Shown one piece after another: positions 42,091 to 44,074 of a DNA stretch of 64,000 bases. The position numbers were made by a program, and so were the translations under genes. A model generated the notes under the pieces. It did no database searches. It worked only from the letters and a program-made list of their open reading frames with translations, and was not told where the DNA came from. How positions within the stretch are numbered: position 1 is the first letter of the stretch; every line of letters begins with the position of its first letter. This DNA is from Mugil cephalus (lineage: Eukaryota; Chordata; Actinopteri; Mugiliformes; Mugilidae), in the NCBI RefSeq assembly GCF_022458985.1, contig NC_061789.1, forward strand, positions 8,784,357 through 8,848,356, given 5' to 3'.

Positions 42091-44074
42091 ATGTCGGGAC
42101 AGCGGGTGTGCGTGTCGGACTTCGAGGAGGAAGCGAGGAGAGTTCTTCCCAAAGCTGTGTATGACTACTACCGCTCAGGGGCCGATGAGCAGAACACGCT
42201 GGCTGACAATGTAGCTGCCTTTAAAAGGTAAAACCCATCAACACCCACAGTCTTTGTGGGACGTTGTGTTTTGAAGCCAAAGTTCAAAGTTTTATCCTCA
42301 GACTGTGTAACAGAACATGCTGTGTAATGGTTTCTAAAATGGTTTTTATAGCTGTTACCAACAATCACACTCATGTACGTTTATTCCTATTCTTAGTTTT
42401 GTGTTTTAGTAACAATATGTGATTAATTTTATAAAGTTGCATACATGTAAATACAACAGAAACTTGACATATGGCTCATTTGTAGTGCACATAATGCAGT
42501 GTCGACTCAGAGCAAGTAATACACAGGCCTGGATGGCATGATTATAGCGATAATAACGTGTGCGTCTCTGCCTGTAGGTGGTACCTCATCCCTCGAGTGC
42601 TGAGGGACGTGTCCACGGTGGATCTGTCCGTGTCAGTGCTCGGCCAGAAGCTCAGCATGCCCATCTGTGTTGCAGCTACAGCAATGCAGAGGATGGCTCA
42701 TCCCGAGGGGGAGACGGCTACAGCGAGAGGTAAACACTAGTGGGAACTTCACAGTAAAAGAAAAAAAAGTTGAGCAGCAACTTCGATTATTAGACAATGT
42801 CGGCCTCTAGTGGCTGTTTGGGAAACTGCATTTTTTTTCGCATTGGCACATTTTTCAGCTCTGGAGGTTGTTGCTTGGTCAGACATGGATGTTTCTAAGG
42901 ACAATTGTGCACAAACTTGTATTTTGCTCGAGAAATTACAACTAATATGCACCGATCAGGCATAACATTATGACCACCTTCATCTAATATTCACATCTAA
43001 CACTGTGTAGGTCTACCTTGCGCCTCCAAACCAGCTGTGCCTCATCAGAGGAGTGTCATTGCTTTGGGGTGGGGGGTGGCTTTGTCTGGTCTAGGTGGGA
43101 GCTACATGTCTAAGTAACGTCCACATAAATGCCGTAAGATCCTAAAGTTTACCAGTAGAACATTCAATTCTTACAAAATACTCAATTTCATGTACTTCTC
43201 CTGGCAGTGGTTTTACTGTTGTGGCTGATCAGGTAAGTTATGGGTCCATGTTCAAGATTTTTCCAGGTTCTGTGTAGAATCTGTTCAGAGCCTTTTTAAT
43301 ATTCTGTTAAACCACTTTAGAAAATGCATTTGCCACAAGTAACTGTATGTTTCCCCCCAGCATGCAAAGCGGTGGGAACAGGGATCAAGGAGCATCAAGG
43401 ACATCAAGGACAAAGCATCAAGGAGTCACAGTTTAACAGTTTAACATCTTGTGGTTTGGATGCAGCCGTTAGATGCAGTGGCATGAAGACCCAGCCAGAT
43501 TCGATGTCCCAGGACGCCCGCAAGGCTCTGCCTCGAAACCTGGGAACCCCGACTGATACCCCGCCCAGCACTCTGATGATGAACAGCAAAGGTCTCAACC
43601 CCAGCCCAAAGAGGGCCATACGGGACCCCAAAACAGGACGAGGTAATGTTCTTCACCCTCCTCACCTCGGTCTGTGGTGATGATTATTACACTAGGGGCT
43701 GCACATGTTCATGGTTATAAATGGAAGACGTGTATGTGTGACTGCACTCTTTTAACTTTTCATACTTGCCGTGTTGCAGCTGTCCAGGAGAGGAACTCGT
43801 ACGCAGTGAGCGTGTGGAAGAGAGTGAAAGCCAAGCTGGAGGGCAGAGACATCGATCCCAACAGGAGGATGAGTGTCACAGAGCAGGTAATATGCATGTA
43901 TGGATTTATTACGTTCAGTGAATGTATACATCTACAATGACCTGAATGTGTGAAGCAGTGAGATGCACCGTTTCCTGACCTCTTGTGATCTTGCAGGTGG
44001 ACTTTGTTATCAAAGAGGCTACCAACATGGACAACCTGGCCCAGCTGTATGAGGGTTGGACTGCCTGGGTGTGA
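42091..44074 (+). CDS. HAO1-SMG1 chimeric gene A (units 1/2 junction), in-frame fusion
   Basis: HAO1 exon 1 (42091-42227, [17 protein letters not shown] through [17 protein letters not shown]) and exon 2 (42578-42729, through [20 protein letters not shown]) encode the first 96 residues of a glycolate oxidase, the FMN-dependent peroxisomal 2-hydroxyacid oxidase. Exon 3 starts at 43361 (ACKAVGTG), then crosses the array junction. The frame stays open through a 27-residue linker ([16 protein letters not shown] and on) into SMG1 exon 62, whose donor ends the fused exon at 43642. SMG1 exons 63 (43780-43886) and 64 (43997-44074) follow in phase to [13 protein letters not shown], giving 251 residues. 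Splicing exon 2 directly to 43466 is also in phase. It lacks most of the TIM barrel and the peroxisomal C-terminus, so oxidase activity is not expected. Expression is unproven; it may be a duplication by-product. Confidence 0.65.
42951..43234. mobile_element. MITE-like DNA element in HAO1 intron 2 (unit 1)
   Basis: The ends ACCGATCAGGCATAACATTA and TTTTACTGTTGTGGCTGATC (then AGGT) are imperfect inverted repeats. They match a widespread non-coding teleost element recognised by 'cataacattatgaccacctt'. Copies lie at 51051-51334 and 59193-59474. Superfamily not assigned. Confidence 0.55.

Follow-up and report, generated by a model that had tools for sequence, protein, structure and literature searches.

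An in-frame HAO1-SMG1 chimera at the seams of a tandem array in Mugil cephalus

The Sdic genes of Drosophila melanogaster originated from a duplication that spanned the neighboring genes sw and AnxB10 (formerly Cdic and AnnX) and produced a chimera, which was multiplied in tandem and is subject to gene conversion (PMC7475035, PMC3449122). The Sdic family is described as affecting sperm competition (PMC7475035). In Drosophila yakuba, tandem duplications likewise bring the 5' portion of one gene together with the 3' portion of another and can alter expression; these chimeras are polymorphisms that were studied with RNA data (PMC5460883). Among fishes, chimeric afgp/tlp genes are reported from the tandem antifreeze locus of notothenioids (PMC13131655).

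Here, we describe a fusion of HAO1 and SMG1 in Mugil cephalus that is best regarded as a fresh case in which a tandem-duplication seam yields a chimeric gene; its closest counterparts are Sdic and the D. yakuba chimeras. It differs from Sdic in three respects. (i) Sdic was fused by way of later deletions, whereas the mullet fusion is direct (PMC7475035). (ii) All 31 of 31 annotated Sdic copies are described as having coding potential, whereas here one splice form is open at two of three seams and the other at all three (PMC7475035). (iii) The mullet unit holds an unrelated complete gene (here, gene X), and the fusion is known from genome sequence alone. Unlike the polymorphic D. yakuba chimeras, it belongs to a multi-copy array read from a genome (PMC5460883). 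The afgp/tlp chimeras differ in genes and origin, and neither “hao1” nor “smg1” occurs in the main text of that report (PMC13131655). Among papers naming both HAO1 and SMG1, no title concerned such a fusion, nor did any when “fusion” was added to the search, and no comparable fish case was found in the literature as judged by titles and abstract openings. The locus is a clear natural case of a seam-made gene, in which the two parents lie together with the scar and three sister copies and in which frame loss and exchange can be observed.

The array, its seams, and the native parents

The window, that is, the whole stretch of 64,000 nucleotides that was analyzed, corresponds to C20:8784357-8848356, and the genome searched comprises 634.8 Mb in 24 contigs. 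A self-comparison of the window revealed units of about 8.1 kb that repeat from position 35283 onward. In the present assembly, the array consists of four such units and contains three HAO1-SMG1 seams (here, J1, J2, and J3), with native SMG1 on its left and native HAO1 on its right. In each unit, the terminal part of SMG1 is followed by a complete gene X and then by the upstream region and first part of HAO1. The earlier note on this DNA, which dealt with the first seam, was silent on the native flanks and on the complete gene in every unit. The units are 91 to 98% identical over long aligned pieces and have private changes and indels. No run of five or more Ns is present within the window and the next 17.6 kb, and Rfam at gathering scores gave no match within the window. 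The left flank and the first unit are as follows.

16456..35948, forward strand: native SMG1 in part, ending with its own terminal exons (35340-35516, 35654-35760, and 35871-35948), from human SMG1 matches in order and the tail-exon comparison; the first exon lies outside this model
35283..43408, forward strand: unit 0 (SMG1 tail, gene X copy 0, HAO1 start, up to seam 1), from the self-comparison, in which homology between copies begins at 35283, equivalent to 43409

Judging from aligned pieces and open frames, SMG1 and HAO1 each seem to be present independently of the fusion. For SMG1, three segments align with a solved human chain (6l53): 16456-16905 with residues 540-631, 27780-28085 with residues 2155-2233, and 34608-34952 with residues 3429-3506. 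The last two SMG1 exons are each found four times genome-wide, once in the native gene and once behind each seam (all nine candidates scored). Likewise, C20 has four occurrences of the HAO1 start, thrice fused and once native (40 of 2096 candidates scored). Native HAO1 begins at the window-equivalent position 66435, after the third fused seam; its exons 1 to 4 join as one open frame of 246 codons, and open pieces of its later exons are visible down to the C-terminal SRM. Five short HAO1 motifs had no further match in six frames of the window. The FMN_dh profile also matches a second gene, on C12. Elsewhere, a short stretch at C3:12396726-12396985 resembles portions of HAO1 intron 1 and exon 2 at 75 to 86% and is possibly an old HAO1 fragment, and a dispersed repeat in HAO1 intron 2 (window 43043-43233) recurs at about thirty places on other chromosomes with 73 to 84% identity, among 40 candidates scored.

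Alignment with native HAO1 shows that the HAO1 part of J1 stops at 43385, 25 nt into exon 3. The start of this exon lies at 43361, 51461, and 59601 in J1, J2, and J3, respectively. The J1 seam is composed of three parts.

43361..43385, forward strand: first 25 nt of HAO1 exon 3, identical to native HAO1 over this length, own acceptor retained
43386..43408, forward strand: filler, about 23 nt long, separating the HAO1 part from the SMG1 part and missing from native HAO1 and native SMG1
43409..43642, forward strand: end of an SMG1 intron (57 nt, translated in the read-through form only) and SMG1 exon “62” from 43466, from the self-comparison, copy alignment, and frame

The motif CATCAAGGA occurs three times at this seam (43393, 43402, and 43416), and native SMG1 beside the break has a single near match to it, CATCGATGA. 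Copied-in bases of such a sort are known from polymerase-theta end joining. The filler looks like the product of end joining with copied-in bases, with a template that is imperfect for a polymerase-theta scar. Three distinct seam versions exist, one of which (J2) has an 8-bp deletion. Because the breakpoint and the filler are common to all three, the seam probably arose once and was later multiplied.

Frames, splice forms, and predicted proteins

The SMG1 exon and intron numbers used here (intron 61 and exons “62” to “64”) are those of the earlier note. The exons of J1 are bounded by GT donors and AG acceptors, and two forms of the fusion follow from the choice of the third acceptor. The read-through form uses the HAO1 exon 3 acceptor, and the skip form joins HAO1 exon 2 to the SMG1 acceptor.

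42091..42227, forward strand: J1 exon 1, HAO1 exon 1 (frame, human HAO1 match, native HAO1 alignment)
42578..42729, forward strand: J1 exon 2, HAO1 exon 2 (frame, human HAO1 match, native HAO1 alignment)
43361 (read-through) or 43466 (skip) to 43642, forward strand: J1 third exon, with the form set by acceptor choice
43780..43886, forward strand: SMG1 exon “63” (copy alignment, frame)
43997..44074, forward strand: SMG1 exon “64” including the stop codon (copy alignment, frame, Pfam)
50210..52251, forward strand: fusion copy J2, read-through form broken by a stop at codon 119, skip form open with 216 amino acids
58350..60314, forward strand: fusion copy J3, both forms open, with 251 and 216 amino acids

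These exon borders and the open joined frame confirm the earlier proposal of an in-frame HAO1-SMG1 chimera at a tandem-duplication seam. The linker that joins ACKAVGTG to the SMG1 exon, previously given as about 27 residues, is exactly 27 residues long; the frame ends at SMG1's own stop, and HAO1 upstream sequence precedes the fusion, both as had been claimed. The predicted 251-residue protein holds for J1 and J3 but not for J2, in which the 8-bp deletion creates a TAA at codon 119. With this stop 313 nt upstream of the final splice junction, decay of the J2 read-through RNA is likely. The matching intron phase of HAO1 exon 2 and SMG1 exon “62”, also noted before, leaves a skip form of 216 residues open at all three seams. 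Behind each seam, the SMG1 stop is followed by three retained AATAAA signals, the sole sign by which polyadenylation was judged.

By matrix-based scoring, the HAO1 exon 3 acceptors of the three copies score 8.3, 6.4, and 8.3, versus 2.5, 2.5, and 2.1 for the SMG1 exon acceptors. The native SMG1 acceptor, which is necessarily functional in its own gene, has the same score of 2.5, and the score may therefore undervalue the SMG1 acceptor of the fusion. Given the base composition of the junction, 27 open codons would occur by chance with a probability of 0.15; combined with a one-in-three phase, an in-frame outcome would be expected by chance in about 5% of cases for the read-through form and in one-third of cases for the skip form. 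An open frame across the seam was thus a little lucky, a piece of luck that is small and not extraordinary.

The coding parts of the fusion derive from two different donor genes. The HAO1 part aligns to residues 4 to 106 of human HAO1 and the SMG1 part to the last 124 residues of human SMG1. Pfam recognizes positions 1 to 89 of the 350 in the FMN_dh profile, plus FATC. A whole FMN_dh domain is absent, with three quarters of the oxidase profile missing, and Pfam found no kinase domain in the fusion, which therefore does not have the succession of kinase and FATC expected of an SMG1-type PIKK.

The idea that the fusion is expressed and selected, and that it modulates mRNA decay in HAO1-active tissues through a FATC tail docked on SMG1 in trans, seems to us hardly credible, and any effect of the tail on SMG1 is speculation. 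FATC is described as integral to PIKK kinases and as important for folding (PMC3789791), a point that speaks against any action of a free FATC. On the other hand, about 1200 residues separate the kinase and FATC in SMG1 (PMC8592573), which makes a FATC on another chain less far-fetched than it would be in other kinases of the family.

Substitutions, indels, and exchange among the copies

We compared the skip-form coding sequence (651 nt) among J1 to J3, with a noncoding rate taken from 79 changes at 1649 sites after sites within 10 columns of a gap had been dropped. In this comparison and in that of indels, the border of the unit at the second seam was taken as 51501, 8 nt early owing to the deletion, which leaves the exon counts unaffected. 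The skip form has 7 nonsynonymous and 8 synonymous changes, versus 24.8 and 11.1 expected at the noncoding rate. The nonsynonymous deficit has a Poisson P of 2.6e-5 and the synonymous one a P of 0.23, and the binomial P of the ratio is 0.058; without the gap filter, the expected numbers are 29.7 and 13.1 and P is 0.055. The HAO1 part alone has 2 nonsynonymous and 5 synonymous changes (binomial P of 0.03), and SMG1 exon “62” shows no constraint (5 and 3 changes, P of 0.47). SMG1 exons “63” and “64” have no change of either kind, versus 6.3 and 3.1 expected, and 9 to 10% of the filtered sites in the introns beside them vary among the three copies. No indel was found in the five skip-form exons across the three copies. 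The introns and the seam have 12 indel events, several in single-base runs (the script gave 3, 5, 1, 1, 2, and 1, with the seam deletion counted twice).

Low change is also seen outside coding sequence. Seven or fewer changes were found in 25 of 134 noncoding windows near HAO1 (285 sites each), and none in 118 of 374 windows downstream of SMG1 (185 sites each). We dropped selection on the last two SMG1 exons as strong evidence, since synonymous changes are absent from them as well and unchanged stretches of such length are common downstream. Moreover, when J1, J2, J3, and native HAO1 are compared, sites that split them two versus two support all three pairings, at 7, 5, and 4 sites. Of the five synonymous differences within the HAO1 part, two show a state that one copy has in common with native HAO1. 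These observations indicate that the fused copies and their HAO1 parent probably exchanged sequence, as copies do in Sdic, here among three tandem seams. Exchange with functional parents can explain the low protein change. Thus, the evidence for protein constraint on the fusion is weak and confounded, and it is suggestive rather than decisive. Codon 28 is Cys (TGC) in native HAO1 and Arg (CGC) in all three fused copies.

Gene X and the origin of the array

Gene X is intact in all four units, with four exons and 515 to 566 residues; the number of its 17-residue repeats varies by whole units.

38325..40459, forward strand: gene X copy 0, four exons, 566 amino acids, about 12 repeats of 17 residues (exon models)
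46446..48534, forward strand: gene X copy 1, intact, 549 amino acids (exon model)
54621..56607, forward strand: gene X copy 2, intact, 515 amino acids (exon model)
62714..64000, forward strand: gene X copy 3, truncated at the window end; intact with 515 amino acids when read onward into the adjoining chromosome stretch, where native HAO1 follows

At least 108 places in the genome match the exon-2 core of gene X (150 of 156 candidates scored). Four of them are in the array, one that is 99% identical is on C20 about 240 kb away, and five stand in a row on C8; some of the weaker matches lie in open frames of 1245 to 2050 amino acids. The 99% identical match on C20, a fifth gene X copy, is on the other strand at positions 2595-5592 of C20:8577500-8587000. 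It has about 3 kb in common with the unit (window 37937-41114) at 96 to 97% identity, and no SMG1 or HAO1 part was found beside it within the 9.5 kb examined, suggesting that the gene X module moved or was copied by itself.

We consider it likely that the region was amplified around gene X and that the fusion rode along as a by-product of the copying. A single tandem duplication of the SMG1-HAO1 interval would have fused the beginning of HAO1 with the 3' end of SMG1, and unequal exchange would then have raised the number of units to four. Gene X would be the complete gene that the unit carries, and the chimera a passenger created at each seam. Any transcript initiated in the copied HAO1 upstream region would most likely be spliced via the HAO1 exon 3 acceptor, giving the 251-residue protein from J1 and J3, an RNA that is likely degraded from J2, and possibly the 216-residue form from every copy. 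As a short oxidase stub with a FATC tail, the protein would have no enzyme activity and would probably be unstable and serve no needed function. The multiplication of the gene X family in many places offers a simple reason for an array here. The passenger origin is further suggested by the common breakpoint and filler, the native flanks, the intact state of gene X in four of four units together with its 108 matches, the loss of one of three read-through frames, the HAO1 acceptor that outscores that of SMG1, and the small remnant of FMN_dh. Against it stand the nonsynonymous deficit (P of 2.6e-5) and the lack of indels in skip-form exons, both of which fit some protein constraint, as well as the native SMG1 acceptor, whose score is equally 2.5. 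Furthermore, gene X is not proven to matter. Copies 0 to 2 differ by 9 nonsynonymous and 6 synonymous changes over the 1092 nt outside the repeats, which shows no clear constraint, and we infer rather than prove its role as driver of the array.

It is rather unlikely that the fusion is instead a real young gene under selection, mainly in its 216-residue form and expressed via the copied HAO1 upstream region. The skip form open in all three copies, the nonsynonymous deficit, the ratios for the HAO1 part (2 versus 5) and the whole fusion (7 versus 8), and the last two SMG1 exons, invariant beside introns that vary, speak for such a gene. However, similarly low change occurs in noncoding windows, the conflicting site patterns allow exchange with functional parents to suffice as an explanation, SMG1 exon “62” is unconstrained, and the skip form depends on the weaker-scoring acceptor. 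Tandem repeats of 8 kb are difficult to assemble, and the array could in part be an assembly error, with fewer or more units and miscounted seams; this is very improbable in view of the private changes and indels of units that are 91 to 98% identical, the three distinct seam versions, and the lack of N runs. Slightly less probable still is a fusion RNA that acts without a protein, either by competing for regulators of the SMG1 3' untranslated region or, in the case of J2, as a decay target that senses NMD activity. The SMG1 stop and the three AATAAA signals behind each seam and the position of the J2 stop (313 nt before the last splice junction) would suit such a role, but no feature exceeds what copying alone gives. 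If the passenger is expressed, it would test whether chimeras riding with an amplified neighbor ever become genes.

Gene X itself points to a large fish gene family without a Pfam model and with more than 100 matches in this genome. It has no Pfam match at an E value of 5, and its first 227 residues have no PDB match at the same value. An AlphaFold prediction of one contiguous exon, made with no alignment, had a mean pLDDT of 51.7, which is too low for a fold search. A gene X pattern matched five stretches in viral contigs, none of which encodes a relative. Two proteins gave six rows in NCBIfam, a prokaryote library, all below the cut-off. With four pieces of gene X relatives (two pieces from one copy on C8 and two long open frames, of which one is truncated), 13 of 14 Pfam rows were below the curated cut-off; the lone row above it is Ipi1_N (37 bits) in a C4 relative, at residues 697 to 793, outside the common core of gene X, and we attach no meaning to it. 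Upstream of gene X, 30-bp tandem repeats with TGATGTCA motifs, which we take to be cAMP-response-like from the motif only, are present in all four units (38103-38186, 46224, 54398, and 62492), and a TATA-like GTATAAATAG lies directly downstream of these repeats.
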